In this document: in pieces, positions 5,810-43,858 of the stretch
How the letters are laid out: each line of letters starts with the position of its first letter
Numbering within the stretch: the first letter of the stretch is position 1
Origin: a virus
Virus record (IMG/VR): IMGVR_UViG_3300032291_003678
Location: 1-62,224 of that record
Reading direction: 5' to 3' (one strand)
Length of the DNA: 62,224 nt
The notes under the pieces: model-generated
The model's input: the letters and a program-made list of their open reading frames with translations, nothing else
Database searches by the model: none
What the model was told of the DNA's origin: nothing
Program-made: the position numbers and the translations under genes

Positions 5810-5886
5810 CAACCAAGGTGGGATTCGAACCCACGTCTCTTCGGCCCTCTCGGACCGATTGCTTTCACCCCTTCCGCTTCTTGGTT
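5810..5886 (-). tRNA. tRNA-like element, isotype unclear
   Basis: 77 bases on the minus strand. There is a perfect 7-bp acceptor stem (AACCAAG / CTTGGTT) and a perfect T arm (GTGGG TTCGAAT CCCAC). The 17-base D arm, GCGGAAGGGGTGAAAGC, resembles the Leu/Ser D-arm pattern. The anticodon region is abnormal: TCGGT/GCCGA would leave an 8-base loop containing GAG, or the same bases fold as a 7-bp stem with a GAGA tetraloop. CCA is not encoded. It may be an unusual tRNA-Leu(GAG), a decayed tRNA, or a tRNA mimic. It sits alone between protein genes. Confidence 0.55.
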
Positions 5887-33188: not shown

Positions 33189-34100
33189 TTATTTGGTTGT
33201 TAATAATTTTGAAACACAGGCACAAAATGTAATTTCTTTATCAGGTGCCATAATTGATTTGTATTGGTAATCTGCTATTACAAGAGTAGCAATTGATGAA
33301 TCTGTAAATTCATCTGCTCTTTCAAATAATACTCTATATAACTCATTATAATCTCTAATATTAGAATCCATTACTAACTGTCTTATAGTAGTAAAATTCT
33401 TAACATTTTTGGTTTTAAGTAATTCTATTACTTGATCTGATGTTTGTTTAAAATTAGTAATAGTTCTACTTTCTACTAATTCACCATTTTTAAGAGAAGA
33501 TTGTAGTAAGTTTAAGGTTTTTCTAATATCGGGATAAGTTTGTTTAACAATTCTTACTATATCAGCTTTAGTATAAGTAATACTTTCTAAATCTAGAATT
33601 TCAACACACTTGAAGGCTACATCCTGCATTGATGGAGGAGTTAATTCAAATATTACTGTTCTAGATTGAATAGGATCAATTATACGTTCAATGTAATTGC
33701 AAGTAAAAACAAAACGAGTATTTAAACTGTATGTTTCAATTATATTACGAAGTGCTGCTTGAGCGTTTATTGTTAAGAAATCTGCTTCATCCATTATAAC
33801 CACTTTTTGTGGTTTAAAACTAGCTGCTGAAGCAAATGATTTTACCTTATCTCTAATAGTATCAATACCATTTTCATCAGAACAATTAATGTATAATGAA
33901 TCACAATCAATATTATTGATGATTAGTTTGGCTGCAGTAGTTTTACCTGTTCCTGCTCCTCCTGTTAATAGTAGGTGAGGAATATCATTAGAATCAATCC
34001 ATTGTTGCAAAGATGATTTAAAATCATCATTTCCAATGTACCCTTCTAAGGTATCAGGTCTATACTTTTCGGTAAATAAGGTGTGTTTTTTATTGAACAT
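33189..34100 (-). CDS. Clamp loader ATPase subunit, gp44-like
   Basis: 303 aa AAA+ ATPase. EKYRPDTLEGYIGND N-terminus, Walker A GGAGTGKTTAAK, Walker B VVIMDEADFLT, sensor FTCN and QSRTVIFEL, as in T4 gp44 and RFC. Loads the gp45-type clamp on primer ends. Hairpin 34116-34137 separates it from the GroEL gene. Confidence 0.92.
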   Translation of the reverse strand: MFNKKHTLFTEKYRPDTLEGYIGNDDFKSSLQQWIDSNDIPHLLLTGGAGTGKTTAAKLIINNIDCDSLYINCSDENGIDTIRDKVKSFASAASFKPQKVVIMDEADFLTINAQAALRNIIETYSLNTRFVFTCNYIERIIDPIQSRTVIFELTPPSMQDVAFKCVEILDLESITYTKADIVRIVKQTYPDIRKTLNLLQSSLKNGELVESRTITNFKQTSDQVIELLKTKNVKNFTTIRQLVMDSNIRDYNELYRVLFERADEFTDSSIATLVIADYQYKSIMAPDKEITFCACVSKLLTTK

Positions 34101-34115
34101 AACTTTTATAATATA

Positions 34116-34137
34116 TGGAGCCTCTTTCGAGGCTCCA
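34116..34137 (-). terminator. Strong terminator-like hairpin
   Basis: Perfect 9-bp palindrome TGGAGCCTC / GAGGCTCCA with a TTTC loop, just after the GroEL stop codon and before the gp44-like gene. It probably limits chaperonin readthrough into replication genes. Confidence 0.7.
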
Positions 34138-34143
34138 AATTTA

Positions 34144-35784
34144 TTACATCATTCCTTGCATAGGATTGACTTCTTCTTTTTTGTCTTCTTTTTTCTCGTA
34201 AATTACAGATTCTGTTGTTAGGATTGTACCTGCAACTGAAGCTGCGTTTTCTAAAGCAATACGAGTTACTTTTTTAGGATCAATAATACCTGCTCCTTTA
34301 AAGTCCATTGTTGATAAGTCTTTATAGTTAAGACCAGCCCAATTACTTCCTTTTTCTGAGTCAGTTAATTTAGAACCTAAGTATTGAACTTCAGTCAAAT
34401 CATGTCCGGCGTTAGTTAAGATTCTTTGGAATGGAGCAGCTGCTGCTCTATAAACAATTTTCTTACCATTTACAAAATCATTTGAACCTTCAAAAGTAAT
34501 ACCTTTACGAGCATATAGTAAAGCAGTTCCACCACCAATTACAATACCTTCTTCTAAAGCAGCTTTTGTAGCAAATAAAGCATCTTCTACTCTATCTTTT
34601 TTCTCTTTGATCTCTAATTCACTATTACCACCTACGTTAATAATAGCTACACCACCAATCATTTTACCTAAACGCTCTTGTAATTTTTCTTTTTCAAATG
34701 GTGAACCTGCGTCATCAATTTGCTTTTTAATTTCTTGAGCTCTAGTTTCGATTGCTTCTTCTGATCCCTTACCATCAACAATGGTTGTTTTATCTTTACC
34801 GATTGTAGCAGTACGAGAATTACCTAGACATTGTTTTAATGTATTAACATCAATTTTATCAAGTTTATGACCTTTATCTTTAGAAAGAACTTGACCACCT
34901 GTAATAGTAGCTAAATCTTCTAAAGCCATTGTTCTACGATCTCCAAATTCAGGTGCTTTAACTGCTACTACATTTACAATACCTCTCATTTTATTAACGA
35001 TAGACACGGCTAATGCTTCACCATCCACATCTTCTGCTACTACTAATAGTGCTCGTTTTTCAGTGTTGGCTAATGTTAAAGCTGGAATTAATTCTTGGTG
35101 GTTAGTAATTCTACCATTATAAATTAAAATGTAAGGGTTATCTAACACAGCTGTCATTGTATTGTTATCTGTTACAAAATAAGGTGATTTATAACCTCTA
35201 TCAAATTGCATACCTTCAACAATCTCAAGTGAAGTTTCACCTGATTTTGATTCCTCGATAGCTACAATCCCATCTCTACCTACTTTTTCTAAAGCAGTAG
35301 CAATTAAATTTCCGATTTCTTCATCGTTGTTACCTGAGATAGTAGCGACTTCTTTGATTTGTTGATTATCAGAAATTTCTTCTGTTAGGTTATTAAGAGC
35401 GGATTTAAGTTCTTCTACAGCTGCATCAATCCCCTTTTTAATTTCAATTGGGTTTTGACCTGCACTTACGTGTTTTAATCCTTCTTCTAGGATTGCATAA
35501 GACAATAAAGTAGAAGTAGTAGTACCATCACCCACTTCATTAGCGGATTTAATTGATACTTTTTTAACTAATTCAGCACCAATTGATTCGATTGGATCTT
35601 CTAATTCTTTAAATTCTTTAGCTACAGATACACCGTCTTTGGTTACTGTTAATTGACCATAATCTCCTTTGATTAATACTGTTCTACCTGCTGGTCCTAA
35701 GGTAGAAGATACACTATCATTAAGTTTTTTAACTCCTGATAGTAATTTTGTTTTTAATTCTGTTCCGAATGCTGTTTCTGTCAT
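34144..35784 (-). CDS. groL: GroEL chaperonin
   Basis: 546 aa, full length. [15 protein letters not shown], the ATPase motif [10 protein letters not shown], the catalytic Asp region [15 protein letters not shown], and a shortened Met/Gly tail ending in NPMQGMM. Phage-encoded GroEL assists folding of phage proteins such as the major capsid protein, a job T4 does by supplying only a co-chaperonin (gp31). Paired with groES upstream, spaced by 2 bases. Confidence 0.95.
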
Positions 35785-35786
35785 GA

Positions 35787-36080
35787 TTAGTCTTCTATAA
35801 CTGATAAAATATCATTTTGGTTAGCGATTAAGTAATCTTCTCCCTCTAATTTAACTTTGTGAACTCCCATTGGTGGTAATACAACTTTCATTCCTGCTTT
35901 TAAATCCATAGGAGCAAATTCCCCTTTACTGTAATTATAAACTTGGGATACTGCTAATATTTCTCCCATAATTGGTTTTTCATTTCCCATATCAGGAATG
36001 ATAATGTTACCCACCATCATTTCTGATTCTTCCATGGGCTTTAGAATAACATTGCCGTTTCTCGGCTTTAATTTACTCAT
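35787..36080 (-). CDS. groS: GroES co-chaperonin
   Basis: 97 aa. N-terminal LKPRNGNVILKP, the mobile-loop region with hydrophobic IIIPD, and KVVLPPMGVHKVKLEGEDY. Caps the GroEL encoded by the next gene. Bacterial-type order groES then groEL is kept. Confidence 0.92.
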   Translation of the reverse strand: MSKLKPRNGNVILKPMEESEMMVGNIIIPDMGNEKPIMGEILAVSQVYNYSKGEFAPMDLKAGMKVVLPPMGVHKVKLEGEDYLIANQNDILSVIED

Positions 36081-36373
36081 AATGTAATTGAATTGGTTAA
36101 ATTGTTAAAATTAATTTCTACTGCTTTAGCATATTCCTTAATAGTATATTTAGAGGTATCTAAAGCTTGTTGTTTTGAAATAGAAAACAATGCTGAGGAG
36201 AGTTTAGTAAAATAACCATAAGGTTTTTCTGATTGAGTTGTTGGGTCAATTAGAACCACATTGTAACAACCTTCATCAATAATAATCTTATAGTCTCCTA
36301 AAGCAGGATCCTCAATCATTGATCTTTTCTTAATTGTGCCTTTTTGTCGGCCTTTAAAATTTACATTTGCCAT
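36077..36373 (-). CDS. Conserved phage protein
   Basis: 98 aa. EDPALGDYKIIIDEGCYNVV, PYGYFTKLSSALFSI and YTIKEYAKAVE form a pattern I know from Bacteroidota phages, function unknown. Overlaps the GroES start by 4 bases, so it is the first gene of a three-gene chaperonin operon under the promoter-like palindrome at 36390-36406. Confidence 0.65.
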   Translation of the reverse strand: MANVNFKGRQKGTIKKRSMIEDPALGDYKIIIDEGCYNVVLIDPTTQSEKPYGYFTKLSSALFSISKQQALDTSKYTIKEYAKAVEINFNNLTNSITL

Positions 36374-36389
36374 AACTTTTTTTATTTGT

Positions 36390-36406
36390 TTCGTATAATA
36401 TACGAA
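36390..36406. promoter_or_regulatory. Palindromic promoter motif
   Basis: TTCGTATAATATACGAA, a perfect inverted repeat of the phage motif. It could promote on either strand or serve as a repressor operator; only the minus-strand direction has genes nearby. Confidence 0.5.
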
Positions 36407-36454
36407 AAAATTTTTGGGTATCCAAACAAAACTTAACCTAAGGGCGTAAGGTTA

Positions 36455-36862
36455 TTATTTTATTTTTATGGTTTTGGGTTTTGCTTTTTCAGCAATAGGG
36501 ATAGAAATTTCTAGCAAACCATTTTCTAGTTTTGCTAACGCTAAAGATAAGTCATATTTAGCTGAAATTTTATAACCTAAACTAAAGGATTTTTTAGATA
36601 ATCCTCTATGAATTGTTCCAGGGTGAAGTTCTTTTTCTTCTTCTGGTTTGTCATAACTGATTTTTAGAATATCATCTTCGATATCTACTGTAACATCGTC
36701 TTTAGTAAGACCAGTACATGCTACTTCAAAGTGAAGTCCTGCATCGTCGTAAAAGATATTTAAGGGGTGAGGTTGTTTTGTGGTTGCTGCTGAACCGTAT
36801 CCACTTGTTGGGTAAAAGAAATTGTGGAATAGAATGTCAAATTCATTAAAGTTTGTACTCAT
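36455..36862 (-). CDS. Hsp20 small heat-shock protein
   Basis: 135 aa. Alpha-crystallin core: FEVACTGLTKDDVTVDIEDDILKI, then LGYKISAKYDLSLALAKLENGLLEISIP with the conserved A-x-x-x-n-G-l-L/I pattern, and C-terminal KTIKIK, a variant of the IxI dimer motif. Holds unfolded proteins for the neighbouring GroEL/ES. Phage Hsp20 proteins are common in T4-like cyanophages. Confidence 0.88.
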   Translation of the reverse strand: MSTNFNEFDILFHNFFYPTSGYGSAATTKQPHPLNIFYDDAGLHFEVACTGLTKDDVTVDIEDDILKISYDKPEEEKELHPGTIHRGLSKKSFSLGYKISAKYDLSLALAKLENGLLEISIPIAEKAKPKTIKIK

Positions 36863-36934: not shown

Positions 36935-37657
36935 CTACTCATGTAAAGCCACAAGAAAATATTCAGACTTTACTCCTGCTTCTTCTAGATTAATTTTTAA
37001 TAATCCATCTTTATAAAGATATGCTTTACCAACTGAATCTTTATTTACAGATACTATTTCTCTGAAGTTATTAGCACTAAATGCTACTGATTTTATGTGA
37101 TTAGTAATATTGCCGGGTTCAGAAAAATTTACTTTATTTGAATAAGATGATTTTTCTCCAATTATAAAACCAACAACATCCTCTTTTTGAAAATCTTTAG
37201 TTATTCCAATCTCAAAACGAGGTGGTTTATCTAAGGCATTGTGTGCTTTAATATATTTTTGAGTAAAATCAAAATTAATATCAAATTCTAAATCATGTGG
37301 TGGTAGGTTTGGAGCTACACCTGGATCCTGAATTAATCCTAAATCACTTAAATTGTAAGATAAATCAAATTGGTTATCACTAATATGAAGTTTTAAAAAG
37401 TGATTACCTTGTTTTTCTAATTTCAGTTCAATGTAATCGTTTGTAATATTAAGTAATTTAAGCAATTGACCAGTATTAAAAATACCAATCTCACAGTCTT
37501 CTAATGTTATAGGCGCAGTAATTTCTCCAATACAATCCTTATTGTCGACTGCAAATTTAATGTGAGCTTCGTTGTTTTTAACCTTAAATTTAACTTGAGA
37601 TGTTAGTCCGTTTAAGTAAAAACTTTCAATTATTTGTGCTAATATTTTTTTATCCAT
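36935..37657 (-). CDS. Sliding clamp, gp45-like
   Basis: 240 aa, close to T4 gp45 (228 aa). Two similar beta/alpha halves; FNTGQLLKLLNIT and SANNFREIVSV mark the paired helices, with GLLKINLEEAGVKSEYFLVAL at the C-terminus. Ring clamp for the adjacent split polymerase. Distance to the polymerase C-terminal gene is 1 base. Confidence 0.85.
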   Translation of the reverse strand: MDKKILAQIIESFYLNGLTSQVKFKVKNNEAHIKFAVDNKDCIGEITAPITLEDCEIGIFNTGQLLKLLNITNDYIELKLEKQGNHFLKLHISDNQFDLSYNLSDLGLIQDPGVAPNLPPHDLEFDINFDFTQKYIKAHNALDKPPRFEIGITKDFQKEDVVGFIIGEKSSYSNKVNFSEPGNITNHIKSVAFSANNFREIVSVNKDSVGKAYLYKDGLLKINLEEAGVKSEYFLVALHE

Positions 37658-37658
37658 T

Positions 37659-38594
37659 TTATGAGAATGTAAAGAATTTATGTATTAATGGGTTTGCAGG
37701 TGGTAATGACCATTCTAAGTCATCATAAAAACCTTGTAATTTATTTTGTAATATAGTTTCAAAACTTTTACCTCTATCAATATATTCATTGATAAAATCT
37801 TTCATTTTTTGGGGTAAATCAAATTCTAAGAAAGCTATAGCTTCCATTTGATAAGGATTATCTTTTAAATAAACCCATTTGATTTTATCGCCTTGAACTA
37901 TTTGACTATGGTCTTTATCTAATTGCCAAAACCTTAATAAGTCATTATAGCAAGTAGCAGCTTTAACATTAGCACCTGCACCTTTTTTAAGTGTAGATAA
38001 TATTTTACCTGGTTTTGGAGTAGCCTCAACATAGTCATTTAATACTTTAACTGATGTTGGATTACCTATTAGAGTAAAATCAACATCAGGTGAAGTTGCT
38101 TCAGTTCTAAAATCATGAATTTTTTTATCTACAATACTTTGTGGAGTGCCTTTAATAATTAATTCAAGTATTTCTTGATAAAACTTACCAAAGTATTTTG
38201 GGAAATTAGCTTTTTTAAATTCTAATCCTTTAATATCAAGTTCTTCTTTTGATATACCCTCTTTTTTAGTAATCCATTGAGCATAACGTCTTGTAGCTCT
38301 AAAATAGGCAGAACGAATAACACACTCGGTTTTCATTTCTAATCGGTGTGTACTAATATTAAAGGCTTCTCTAGCGAGTGTGTTATAATGTTCTGTTATA
38401 ATGTCTTGATATTTGAGAGCTACTTTCTCTAATAAATCATCTTTTTCCTGGTCAGGTTTTTCATCAAAATCAGGATATAAATGTTTTAATAAAGGTTCAG
38501 CATTAAAGTAATTAGAGTCTGTATCCACATAGGCACAAAAATTAAAATCACCTTCATCACAAATCCACCATGGAGTATCTTCTAAATGCCTCAT
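37659..38594 (-). CDS. DNA polymerase, family B, C-terminal part (gp43-like)
   Basis: 311 aa from ATG at 38594 (MRHLEDTPWWICDEGDFNF), immediately after the stop of the preceding 87-aa gene. A longer frame starts at 38657 but would overlap that gene by 62 bases. It holds polymerase motif C FCAYVDTDS and the thumb region to the C-terminus. Motifs A and B are in the separate gene at 38859-40589, so the two must assemble to be active. Confidence 0.85.
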   Translation of the reverse strand: MRHLEDTPWWICDEGDFNFCAYVDTDSNYFNAEPLLKHLYPDFDEKPDQEKDDLLEKVALKYQDIITEHYNTLAREAFNISTHRLEMKTECVIRSAYFRATRRYAQWITKKEGISKEELDIKGLEFKKANFPKYFGKFYQEILELIIKGTPQSIVDKKIHDFRTEATSPDVDFTLIGNPTSVKVLNDYVEATPKPGKILSTLKKGAGANVKAATCYNDLLRFWQLDKDHSQIVQGDKIKWVYLKDNPYQMEAIAFLEFDLPQKMKDFINEYIDRGKSFETILQNKLQGFYDDLEWSLPPANPLIHKFFTFS

Positions 38595-38595
38595 A

Positions 38596-38859
38596 TTAAA
38601 ATGTTCTTTCTCCAGGTACTGGTGGTAAATTAACTGGTCTGTTACCTTTGGAGTCAATATCTGTTCTTTCTTTAATTGTTATTTCAAAAGAATTTCCATT
38701 AACTTTACATCTTCCTCCTTGTTGTAGCATTTTTTTAAAGAATTTTTCTTGCGATTCATTCCACTCTTGAGATAGAGCAATTACTTCAGCTTTATCGGCT
38801 TTCTCTCCATTTAAGGTAATACTTACTCCATTTCTAATTGATTGTCCTTTTAATGCCAT
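38596..38859 (-). CDS. 87-aa gene between the two polymerase parts
   Basis: MALKGQSIRNGVSITLNGEK..., helical then beta, C-terminus ending NLPPVPGERTF. It starts in a TAATG overlap with the N-terminal polymerase stop and ends 1 base from the C-terminal polymerase start. All three are therefore translationally coupled. No homology recognised. It does not look like an intein or endonuclease. Confidence 0.6.
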   Translation of the reverse strand: MALKGQSIRNGVSITLNGEKADKAEVIALSQEWNESQEKFFKKMLQQGGRCKVNGNSFEITIKERTDIDSKGNRPVNLPPVPGERTF

Positions 38860-40589
38860 TATATCTCTAATTTAATTTCACCCCTAATTACTTTGTTCAT
38901 ATGTCTGTTTGCACAAAGTGCTGATTCTTGAATAATACGTTGACCACTTAATGTAATGGCTTCTGATAGAATTACATTTCCATATCTAAATGAAGGTAAT
39001 GCTGTAGCACCATAAAGTGAGTTAAGTAAGATTTTCATTGTGTATTGTAATAAATGATATTTTTCACCACCTATTGTATCACCTGCTTTATAAGCGGCTT
39101 TCATTTTATTTTTATATAAAACCCTTTCATCAAACCATTTATTCAAAATAGTAGATAATACTGACTCTTTATCTGTACGGAATATAACACCATTTGCTGA
39201 GATAGCCAAATTATATTGTTGAAGTAGTTTAGCTATTTTAGAAGAAGTCCAATCAATTTTATTGAATTTATCTTTATTAGTAAACCATTCAGTAGTGCGA
39301 GGTTTATCTTCAGTATCATTTATTAAGTCATTTAGGCCTAAGTGATTATTTCTATCATTAAAGTCTACAATTCTACCTACTAATGTTTCCTTACCAATGT
39401 TTAAGGACATAATAATTGAAGGGTATAGTGAAGTTAAATCCTCATCAAACATATAACGGTATAAACCTGCTTTAGGACAAAATAAATAACCACCTGCGTA
39501 ATTAGCCTTTTTAATAGGATTTCTATCACGTGAAGGTGGTACTATATCTTCTGATAGTAAAAACGCTGAAATAGCACCATCATGAATTTTAGATGATTGG
39601 TAAACATCATCATAATGGATTTTACCTTTGTGAGCTAGATTTTTAGTTAAACTGATGTAGTTAAATTTATGGTCTAAAGCTTTTAAAATTTCAACGTCTC
39701 TAAAGTTATATTCAATAAATTTATCCTTATCAGTTTCAAACAATCTGTCCAAACTACCTTCATATTCGATTTTAGATAATTTACAATACTTTTCCCCTAA
39801 TGCATCTAATTTATAAGAGGGTTCATCCGCAAATGAATATTTTTTATGTAAACGAATATAATCTAAAGAATACATCCCTTCAATTCTTATAGGTTGATCT
39901 TCATTATAAATTGTAATTCCAATATCGTTAGTAAATTTTTGTTCTTTAATTTTACCTATTGGAGATAAAACACTAGCTCTACGTTCACCTAATTGATTTA
40001 AAATTCTATAATAAAGATAAGGTATATCGAAATAATCACTATTATAACCAATTAAAATGTCAGGACTAACTTTAGTTAAATAATTTAACCATTTATTTAA
40101 TAGTTCTCTTTCGTTTGGTACAGGTATAATTTGTTTATTACCTATAGTGGTTTTTTCAATTTTATTCTCTTTGTCTAAAATTAGAATATACCATTTATCT
40201 TCTTGTTTATGCCACCAAGCAATTGATGTAACAGGTTTAGGTGCTTTTCTAATGTATTCAGGTGTAAGTGCACCACCCATTTCAATCTCGATATCGAAAA
40301 ATACTTCTTGGTGGGTAGTTGAAGGTTCATCATTTATGCCATATTTATCAATCAAAAACTTTTGATGAATAGGCATATCATGATAATGAATAAATGGATT
40401 ACTTCCTTCCCAGTATGTAGTTTTCTTTAGAGGTTCTCCGTTTAGACCAAAATGTGTAGCCTGGTTTTGGCTACACACTTCATAGGCATAATTTTGAAAT
40501 TCATATTGTTCTACTCCATCATCGGTCCATAAGGTAACATTGTATCTATTTTTACCTAATGATGTAGTTGTTATATTTTTATAACTCAT
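38859..40589 (-). CDS. DNA polymerase, family B, N-terminal part (gp43-like)
   Basis: 576 aa. Exonuclease motifs: Exo I FFDIEIE, Exo II NSDYFD and Exo III YNFRD. Motif A is DLTSLYPSII and motif B KILLNSLYGA. The protein stops shortly after motif B (HMNKVIRGEIKLEI), before motif C, which is in the gene at 37659-38594. Break site is comparable to split gene 43 of some T4-like phages. Confidence 0.9.
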   Translation of the reverse strand: MSYKNITTTSLGKNRYNVTLWTDDGVEQYEFQNYAYEVCSQNQATHFGLNGEPLKKTTYWEGSNPFIHYHDMPIHQKFLIDKYGINDEPSTTHQEVFFDIEIEMGGALTPEYIRKAPKPVTSIAWWHKQEDKWYILILDKENKIEKTTIGNKQIIPVPNERELLNKWLNYLTKVSPDILIGYNSDYFDIPYLYYRILNQLGERRASVLSPIGKIKEQKFTNDIGITIYNEDQPIRIEGMYSLDYIRLHKKYSFADEPSYKLDALGEKYCKLSKIEYEGSLDRLFETDKDKFIEYNFRDVEILKALDHKFNYISLTKNLAHKGKIHYDDVYQSSKIHDGAISAFLLSEDIVPPSRDRNPIKKANYAGGYLFCPKAGLYRYMFDEDLTSLYPSIIMSLNIGKETLVGRIVDFNDRNNHLGLNDLINDTEDKPRTTEWFTNKDKFNKIDWTSSKIAKLLQQYNLAISANGVIFRTDKESVLSTILNKWFDERVLYKNKMKAAYKAGDTIGGEKYHLLQYTMKILLNSLYGATALPSFRYGNVILSEAITLSGQRIIQESALCANRHMNKVIRGEIKLEI

Positions 40590-41871: not shown

Positions 41872-42206
41872 TCATCACCTTTGTGAATTTGAGCATAAAT
41901 ATTTGGTGTATAACAAGAAGTATGAGGTTTATAATGTAATACTGCTGTATAAACACCGACAGTATTCTTTAATGTTAAACCTGTATCACAAATGTCATCT
42001 ATTACTAGAGTATTAGGTAACATCACGTCAGACCACGGTAAACCTAATTTATGTGACACCATCACGGCAGGAATTAACCCGCCGCGTTTTAGTCCAAATA
42101 CTGAATCGATGTTAGGTTGTTCGGTAATAATTTTTTCACATAACATATTAATTAAATCCGAAACATCATCCCAACTTAAATAAATTTTATTATCTATTTT
42201 TAACAT
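41808..42206 (-). CDS. Phosphoribosyltransferase
   Basis: 132 aa. The PRPP-binding loop VIDDICDTGLT and the upstream VFGLKRGGLIPAVMVSHKLG are typical of purine phosphoribosyltransferases of the Gpt/Hpt type. Encoded between the MazG-like and FolE genes. I infer that it could attach ribose phosphate to a 7-deazapurine base, but ordinary purine salvage is the simpler alternative. Confidence 0.85.
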   Translation of the reverse strand: MLKIDNKIYLSWDDVSDLINMLCEKIITEQPNIDSVFGLKRGGLIPAVMVSHKLGLPWSDVMLPNTLVIDDICDTGLTLKNTVGVYTAVLHYKPHTSCYTPNIYAQIHKGDEWIIYPWEKKDSEPIQDYLRK

Positions 42207-42901
42207 TATACTGGGTGTGTTCCGTTATTAATTTTAATTGAATCGAAGAATTCTTTACGTGCTTGATTATTATTTTCCATGAATACACCTGATGCTTTAG
42301 TGGTAACCATTGAAGCACCTTGATGTTTAACACCTCTACAAGATACACAGTTGTGAGTACCAACAATAGAAACGATTATACCTCTATTATTTTCACAAAT
42401 TTTATCTACTGCTTGGTGAACAGCTGAGGTTAATTGTTCTTGAATAGCACCTCTACGTCCGAAATGTTCTACAATTCTATTTAATTTAGATAAACCAATT
42501 ACTCTACCACCTTCACCTACTACATAACCAATATGAACTACTCCTCCAATTGTTTGGTGATGATGTGAACACATTGAAGTTAATGGAATATTTCTTTCGA
42601 TTACAATTCCATCGTAACCATCTGAAGGGAATGAAGTAATTTCAGACATTGGAGTGTATCTACCCTTCCATAGATCATTAACGTAGGCTTTAGCTACACG
42701 TCTTGGCGTATCAGCACTGTTTGGATCATTTCTCCAGTCGCAACCTAATGCATCTAAAAATTGACCATAGGCCTCTGCTGCATCATCAATCATAGATGAT
42801 TTTTCTTTTTCAGTAAGTGGGAAACCAGGTGCGACACCGTTTGCATAACCTACAGGAACGATTTCTAAATCGTTATGAATCTTTTTTCTGTTTTCTGTCA
42901 T
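42206..42901 (-). CDS. folE: GTP cyclohydrolase I
   Basis: 231 aa. PLTSMCSHHHQTIGGVVHIG (zinc Cys and His), IGLSKLNRIVEHFGRR and VSIVGTHNCVSCRGVKHQGA (second zinc Cys). Converts GTP to dihydroneopterin triphosphate, the first step toward preQ0 in 7-deazaguanine synthesis. Near queE and queD. Confidence 0.95.
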   Translation of the reverse strand: MTENRKKIHNDLEIVPVGYANGVAPGFPLTEKEKSSMIDDAAEAYGQFLDALGCDWRNDPNSADTPRRVAKAYVNDLWKGRYTPMSEITSFPSDGYDGIVIERNIPLTSMCSHHHQTIGGVVHIGYVVGEGGRVIGLSKLNRIVEHFGRRGAIQEQLTSAVHQAVDKICENNRGIIVSIVGTHNCVSCRGVKHQGASMVTTKASGVFMENNNQARKEFFDSIKINNGTHPV

Positions 42902-43079
42902 AAGAATAAGTTGTTTTTTTATCTTTACTTGTAAATTTATATCCGTCTAATGTAATGAAGTCTAAGTCAAGATCCAAATCTTCTACATAATATTGTACTT
43001 TAAAACTGCCAATTCTTTCATTGCAGTATAACCACCATAAAGTGTTAAGTATTTCAAGTGGGTTAGGTTGTGTTTCCAT
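42873..43079 (-). CDS. Small hypothetical protein in the queuosine-type cluster
   Basis: 68 aa (METQPNPLEILNTLWWLYC...). Overlaps folE start by 29 bases and abuts the queE stop. No domain recognised, but the tight packing suggests a real, co-regulated gene. Confidence 0.5.
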   Translation of the reverse strand: METQPNPLEILNTLWWLYCNERIGSFKVQYYVEDLDLDLDFITLDGYKFTSKDKKTTYSYDRKQKKDS

Positions 43080-43858
43080 TATACTTCTCTTTGGTCTTCA
43101 AATGCAATGATGTGTGGTCTCCAAGTTAATCTATAACCGTTATCTCGAACCCAATCAAACATTTTAGGATATGATTTGAATAAAGCCTCTCTCGAATCTC
43201 CTGCGGGCATGAACCAAACTTTGTCTTGAGGAATATCTAGTACTTTAATACAACCCATGATCTCTTCCAATGCGCCTTGATCTTCACCATCCCATACTGG
43301 CTTTAAATGGTAATCTGAATGATATGCAATTGATTTAGACATTGCATCATAATTTAATCTCAACTTGTTATGTTGCTTAACCATTTTCTCATCAACTGTA
43401 TCCCCTTGTGGTGTTTTAACTCCCACTCTAGGTACTGAATTGGAAAACTTGGGAGAGATACTGAGAAGGTTAATTGGATAATCAGTCTCAAGAAAATGAG
43501 AGCCCTCTGTTTCAATTGTAATGAAAATATTTCTTTCATGTGCAAAATGTGTTAGTTCATTTACTAATGCTGGATGCATTGTAGGTGATCCTCCGGTAAG
43601 CATCATCTCTGTGATGTGAGGATTTCTGTCGTATGCTTCAATTATATTCTGGAATGAATATTTTCCTTTTTCTGGATTAATTGATGTGTATGGACTATCG
43701 CACCAACCTCCTTCACCGAACCAGCAGCGGTGGGTACAGCCACTTGTTCGAATTACAATTGTAGGATATCCTGCTCTACTCCCCTCACTTTGGACTGCGG
43801 AATAAACTTCTACAATCGGTAATACTTTATTATAATCTTCTATTCTCTTTAATCCCAT
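43079..43858 (-). CDS. queE: 7-carboxy-7-deazaguanine synthase (radical SAM)
   Basis: 259 aa. Opening VYSAVQSEGSRAGYPTIVIR as in QueE, then an unusual cluster motif GCTHRCWFGEGGWCD (C-x3-C-x7-C), then MMLTGGSPTMHPALVNEL and ETEGSHFL. Converts 6-carboxytetrahydropterin to carboxy-deazaguanine. The cysteine spacing differs from the E. coli type but resembles other divergent QueE proteins. Starts the cluster with queD upstream. Confidence 0.85.
   Translation of the reverse strand: MGLKRIEDYNKVLPIVEVYSAVQSEGSRAGYPTIVIRTSGCTHRCWFGEGGWCDSPYTSINPEKGKYSFQNIIEAYDRNPHITEMMLTGGSPTMHPALVNELTHFAHERNIFITIETEGSHFLETDYPINLLSISPKFSNSVPRVGVKTPQGDTVDEKMVKQHNKLRLNYDAMSKSIAYHSDYHLKPVWDGEDQGALEEIMGCIKVLDIPQDKVWFMPAGDSREALFKSYPKMFDWVRDNGYRLTWRPHIIAFEDQREV

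Follow-up and report, generated by a model that had tools for sequence, protein, structure and literature searches.

A gp43-type phage DNA polymerase encoded in two pieces, with variable genes at the junction

We analyzed a 62,224-nucleotide stretch of viral DNA (IMG/VR record IMGVR_UViG_3300032291_003678), hereafter referred to as the window. Judging from its sequence, the window encodes a T4 gp43-type family B DNA polymerase that is split between motifs B and C into an N-terminal half (N) and a C-terminal half (C), with a small conserved gene, M, lying between them. The same split was found throughout a large clade of uncultured T4-like phages in which the genes at the junction varied. We consider it probable that a gp43-type gene was broken once, that its halves assemble, and that the junction has become a cassette slot in which M is a long-resident passenger and not a catalytic subunit.

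The polymerase halves and M in the window

The first-pass annotation had described a family B polymerase split in two, with motif C in a separate ORF from motifs A and B and the exonuclease motifs, and our analyses confirmed this arrangement on the minus strand (Table 1). Read from the sequence, motif A (DLTSLYPS), motif B (KILLNSLYG) and the exonuclease motifs lie in N, and motif C (YVDTDS) lies in C. N matched the Pfam families DNA_pol_B (8.8e-22) and exo1 (8.8e-21), the PHROG DNA polymerase profile phrog_262 (2.6e-108) and, among PDB sequences, chains of the RB69 gp43 type (9.2e-49). C alone had no credible PDB match by sequence search and a Pfam match only below the cut-off; its identity is supported by its match to phrog_262 (2.2e-47) and by its homologues. 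As the profile match reached position 567 in N and started at position 565 in C, the two halves are contiguous, with no homologous residues lost. The window polymerase combines exonuclease and polymerase domains, family B motifs and homology to the gp43 profile.

Table 1. Positions in the window of the split polymerase, M and adjoining features
Feature	Position	Strand	Description
PolB-N	38859..40589	-	576 aa; includes the 3'-5' exonuclease domain, motif A of the palm and motif B in the fingers
M	38596..38859	-	87-aa conserved orphan protein between the polymerase halves
PolB-C	37659..38594	-	311 aa; motif C (YVDTDS), remaining palm, thumb
N stop/M start overlap (TAATG)	38857..38861	-	
M stop, one base, C start (TAA-T-ATG)	38592..38598	-	
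gp45-like sliding clamp gene	36935..37657	-	Directly downstream of C; putative identity, by position

The overlapping and adjacent stop and start codons noticed earlier were also verified. N ends in TAA (38861-38859) and M starts at 38859, one base being common to the stop and the start. The stop codon of M (38598-38596) is followed one base further on by the ATG of C at 38594. The longest reading frame of C extends back to a TTG at 38657, and its homologues begin at the ATG. The clamp-like gene had neither a Pfam match nor a strong PHROG match. Promoters and terminators in the region were at chance level (28 found and 28.0 expected, and 1 found and 1.7 expected, respectively).

Elsewhere in the window, the interval that separates the clamp-like gene from the clamp-loader genes (33189-36862) contains genes for a GroEL-family chaperonin and for Hsp20, together with an ORF that looks GroES-like by eye. 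A GTP cyclohydrolase I gene is close to that of a radical SAM protein, possibly of a deazaguanine pathway (42206-43858). A tRNA on the minus strand (5810-5886) was identified by Rfam (38.4 bits) and missed by ARAGORN.

Split polymerases in related phages

The C half matched 398 stretches, and the C-driven scans kept the best 80 of these 398 and the best 80 of 457 stretches. All junction types were represented among the first 69 distinct loci that had both halves. After further scans, the matches listed gave 261 loci with a C match: 221 were split, 22 had no N within reach and 18, more distant than the split ones, had a continuous polymerase. The split loci collapsed to at least 155 distinct loci, window included, when loci were counted as distinct if the first 250 nt of C or the gap differed, a definition under which near-duplicates remain. 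Because homologues repeat the split in so many distinct loci and M has low dN/dS values (see below), both chance and the sequencing error once entertained as the cause of the split are excluded. Some of the 155 loci were found through M and others through C; since the former inflate the frequency of M, the 116 loci sampled through C were tallied separately.

In a FastTree phylogeny of 157 rows (14 of 171 loci were left out for short sequence), nearly all split loci fell into one main clade of 139 rows with a support of 100. The exceptions were L113, L250 and L260, without which 152 split loci remain. The nearest outgroup consisted of relatives with a continuous polymerase and included L250 and L260, whose polymerases are interrupted by GIY-YIG genes at the corresponding loop; those of near relatives are unbroken. 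The break in these two loci is separate from that of the main clade. A GTDB contig (L274) with a continuous 888-aa polymerase was placed as sister to the split clade (SH-aLRT 94, with long branches meeting at L274), and its polymerase already has a longer loop at the split position. Among named phages, the closest is Microcystis phage Mel-JY01, whose 2547-nt polymerase gene is continuous (34% identity). In the alignment, polymerases of the split clade are longer than that of Mel-JY01 by roughly 25 residues at the junction; N adds about 8 residues there and C about 20. The head of C was conserved across the 155 loci (P8 in 148, W9 in 140 and C12 in 147). The alignments and tree point to one ancestral break, probably in a loop, to which the halves would have adapted afterwards.

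A distant relative from a 484-kb uncultured phage (L113, 1928-9852; LR756508.1) also had its polymerase split near motif C, with a gap of about 3 kb containing four ORFs and with Hint or intein-like stretches in both halves. In the GTDB collection, a first scan using N gave no match, and only four contigs were found, binned as 'bacterium', Flavobacteriales, uncultured bacterium and Pelagibacter, a binning too weak for a host claim.

Junction geometry and inserted genes

The 155 loci comprised 83 with M and cargo, 41 with M alone, 21 with the halves directly joined and 10 with cargo and no M; the corresponding numbers among the 116 C-driven loci were 57, 31, 21 and 7. In every one of the 21 insert-free loci, the two halves overlapped directly by ATGA. 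Relative to the N stop, the first insert began at -1 or -4 in 103 of the 134 insert-bearing loci, the -1 geometry of the window recurring in 53; C was offset from the last insert by -4, +1 or -1 in 112 of them, with the +1 spacing of the window in 39. A clamp homologue lay downstream of C in 150 of the 155 loci, the other 5 having no clamp gene within reach, and this boundary served as a control: gaps of more than 150 nt were present between C and the clamp gene in 23 of the 150 loci, compared with 129 at the N-C junction. In three loci (L124, L132 and L199) the ORF counted as cargo (K10) is part of C, which is therefore broken there.

The inserts were grouped into families by BLAST clustering, and 20 representatives were scanned against Pfam, of which 6 had no Pfam family at E 0.01. 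The clusters included DUF6165 proteins (49 members), cupins of the mannose-6-phosphate isomerase type (20), cytidylyltransferases (14; named heptose-phosphate adenylyltransferase in PHROG), DXD glycosyltransferases (7) and cysteine-synthase-like PLP enzymes (5). In addition, there were DegT aminotransferases, GNAT acetyltransferases, FkbM methyltransferases, formyltransferases, Smr and DUF2452 proteins, and a family 2 glycosyltransferase with a Pfam score below the cut-off. At least one Pfam-supported cluster that we grouped as of sugar or glycan type was present in 44 of the 155 loci. The largest insert, of 5.9 kb, had six ORFs plus M (L030). The order of cargo around M was fixed, as the DUF6165 cluster was downstream in 49 of 49 cases and the cupin upstream in 20 of 20, which indicated that the slot is not random. 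A minus-strand ORF formed a further cluster (K4, 5 loci) that, by its position and the gap length, probably lies over the DUF6165 (K0) gene.

The DUF2452-type gene lay between the polymerase halves in L067, L078 and L104, and a look-alike (by eye) lay between C and the clamp gene in L273, as if moved between junctions.

The first-pass annotation had mentioned that split gene 43 in some T4-like phages is linked to homing endonuclease activity, and had set this link aside for the window. M looks like no endonuclease, but in relatives endonuclease genes occupied the junction in 5 of the 155 loci, namely HNH genes in L002 and L017 and GIY-YIG genes in L080, L250 and L260. Some of these domain scores were just under the Pfam cut-off; PHROG agreed for L017 and L080, and L260 was assigned by cluster only.

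Turnover of inserts between conserved flanks

Gains and losses mapped on the tree of 157 rows amounted to 8 changes for M, 17 for the DUF6165 cluster, 12 for the cupin and 11 for the cytidylyltransferase; the full cargo label changed 65 times, a number inflated by ORF-calling noise, including K4. Near-identical flanks were found around different inserts. L155 and L181, whose flanks were 94.9 and 93.5% identical at the DNA level, had gaps of 1398 and 4210 nt with different cargo, and L128 and L147 (flanks 93.8 and 92.9% identical) had gaps of 999 and 264 nt, also with different cargo. In L011 and L026 the flanks were 96.8 and 97.9% identical, yet M was only 79.3% identical. Among 23 loci with M alone, the identity of M tracked that of its flanks as well as the flanks tracked each other (rho 0.74-0.78; 0.78 for M and N versus 0.77 for N and C), the misaligned pair L102/L107 being disregarded in this comparison. 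Together with the fixed order of cargo, this speaks against pure shuffling.

The HNH genes of L002 and L017 were 97.4% identical, while N, M and C of these loci were 90.3, 79.8 and 87.7% identical, respectively. A 1001-nt stretch of 97.0% identity began about 180 nt inside N. This pattern appears homing-like, being the one expected of homing with co-conversion. Three loci without an endonuclease (L009, L013 and L021) had an altered N tail like that of L002, and these tails are possibly endonuclease scars.

Conservation, placement and predicted structure of M

Homologues of M were found in 31 IMG/VR loci in the first scan, but none of the database searches matched a function. M had no match to phage records at E<=1 and only sub-cut-off matches to Pfam and PHROG. 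A partial PDB profile match to a collagen adhesin (E 0.0015) had no stretch that passed alone and was not credited. AlphaFold models had mean pLDDT values of 65.6 (from 29 sequences) and 65.9 (from 73 sequences) and predicted a beta-beta-alpha-alpha-beta-beta core with a loose tail. The first model had no match with Z>=2 among the VIA structures, and the second had none at E<=0.001 in BFVD or the PDB. The earlier impression that M resembles neither an endonuclease nor an intein was upheld, as comparison with Pfam, PHROG, the PDB and known folds gave nothing substantial.

The sequence of M is conserved and evolves under purifying selection. Of 118 distinct sequences, 73 were left after dropping those at least 88% identical, and Q6, K23, S30, W33, F41, K43 and Q47 were invariant among them. 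The dN/dS values were 0.05-0.23 in six pairs (dS 0.41-1.05). Relatives with a single continuous polymerase, together with M as a spurious frame, had been envisaged as a refutation; such polymerases do exist in the more distant loci, but M, with these dN/dS values, is not spurious.

M did not constantly co-occur with the split polymerase. It was kept in all 24 rows of the window's own subclade and was absent from 28 of the 116 junctions sampled without using M. Of the 31 whole records searched, 25 lacked it. Among these were every one of the 10 directly split records (five of 84-113 kb; of uncertain completeness) and 11 of the 14 from IMG whose polymerase is continuous; M was present in the other 3 of these 14. 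Where M was at the junction, other genes set it apart from N in 40 and from C in 67 of 124 loci. In L029, M lay between GroEL-like and clamp-loader-like genes (names by eye); in L031 (6001-6264), a homologue lay far from the polymerase, between two ribonucleotide-reductase-subunit-like genes (by eye), in a record where an 800-aa polymerase frame, not split, is close to the end of the contig. Based on this varied placement, M is a replication-neighborhood gene of variable position, and we would expect it to be a small nucleic-acid-binding or protein-binding accessory factor.

A further homologue (L167, 6001-6270) had as its neighbor a gene that by eye looks like a methyltransferase gene; the C half of the polymerase was not found in this 23-kb record.

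Interpretation of the split junction

We propose a single break in an ancestral gp43-type gene that was still continuous. The break would lie in a loop immediately ahead of the catalytic motif C hairpin and would have left two translationally coupled ORFs (with the ATGA overlap) whose products would assemble into one polymerase. As the halves would be freed from a shared frame, the junction would tolerate any ORF that ends in a coupled stop and start, and it may thereby have become a cassette slot flanked by two essential, highly conserved sequences, with M as its commonest and long-resident passenger. Cargo would be swapped by homologous recombination through the polymerase flanks, with the exchange sometimes driven by homing endonucleases that occupy the slot themselves, and its carriage may benefit the phage. 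Several observations run counter to this reading: M is mostly inherited with its flanks, the order of cargo is fixed, endonucleases were present in so few loci, and the C-clamp boundary gains genes too. A more elaborate version is possible, and we advance it only tentatively: the junction may be a domesticated gene-capture site, a recombination cassette with two slots, before and after M, that swaps surface-glycan and other host-interaction genes, with polymerase-targeting homing endonucleases as occasional motors.

The suggestion of the first-pass annotation that M is a third polymerase subunit, or an assembly factor bridging N and C that is kept adjacent for co-translational assembly, would accommodate the TAATG coupling of M to N, the long conservation of M with its seven invariant residues, the purifying selection on it and its retention throughout the window subclade. 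We nevertheless consider it unlikely, as many split polymerases lack M, including every directly split record searched, M is placed away from the polymerase in some phages with a continuous polymerase, and cargo frequently parts it from N or C. M is most likely a resident passenger and not a third subunit. As M is mostly inherited with its flanks and the window subclade has kept it without exception, it could matter to the polymerase in that subclade.

Ordinary homing endonuclease damage, in which the gene was split, the remainder is neutral debris and the cargo is incidental, is similarly improbable in our judgment. The endonucleases in five loci, the possible scars in three others and the published Aeromonas 43A/43B cases (PMC2988022) are consistent with such damage, but the cargo consists of intact, conserved and coupled ORFs of recurrent families in a fixed order, and the split has outlasted considerable divergence, with the head of C conserved. 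A self-splicing intron or split intein that restores a continuous polymerase has precedents in the phage polymerase introns (PMC11878797) and split inteins (PMC6892783) that have been documented, and both halves of L113 had the Hint or intein-like matches described above. This explanation is very improbable for the present junction: Rfam identified no group I intron in the window or in 12 loci, N and C of the window had no Hint or intein domain by Pfam, neither an N-intein on N nor a C-intein on C, and the residues added at the junction are too few for an intein. In addition, the direct form has only the ATGA overlap, which leaves nothing to excise. The cassette slot with M as passenger is the reading that we retain.

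Throughout this large clade, an essential replication enzyme is stably encoded in two pieces, and the break is reused as a gene carrier site. This makes it testable how free-standing endonuclease insertions become stable gene architecture. It also offers a single recognizable locus, between ALCANRHMNK and HLEETPWWICD...YVDTDS, for surveying phage auxiliary genes in metagenomes. A two-chain palm, in which the catalytic aspartates of motifs A and C would be on separate polypeptides, would be a natural split polymerase of possible use.

Comparison with known systems

Both split polymerases and endonuclease insertions have been described in phages before. Polymerase introns in phages have been reported (PMC11878797), and the related literature also includes PMC7824862 and PMC2993671. 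In the open-licence PMC literature, as represented mostly by titles and the starts of abstracts, we recognized no description of a split phage polymerase with variable cargo other than endonucleases, nor of a stable split that serves as a cassette site. In OM43 phages MEP401 and MEP402 and metagenomic relatives, two ORFs likewise encode the polymerase and flank a small ORF of unknown function, but it is a family A polymerase (PF00476), the phages are of 43 kb, and the excerpted account describes no variety of cargo (PMC10580990). The PolB of Pseudomonas jumbo phage MIJ3 is also divided over two ORFs that flank another; the intervening ORF is, in contrast to M, an HNH endonuclease, and the halves are reported to have a putative split intein (PMC6892783). 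Polymerase genes of the Jug huge phages are often split by endonuclease genes, but with group I introns and endonucleases and no other cargo in the excerpted description (PMC12363816). The Aeromonas T4-like phages 44RR and 25 resemble the window in that one gp43-type polymerase is encoded as two ORFs (43A/43B), and the gp43 halves of phage 25 are reported to co-purify and to be active (PMC2988022). They differ in having a seg endonuclease or an untranslated spacer at the split, as described in the same excerpted source, where the present clade has variable cargo (PMC2988022). In addition, the split of 44RR is upstream of motif B (498-aa N part; alignment column 554), whereas that of the window is further C-terminal, after motif B (column 660).
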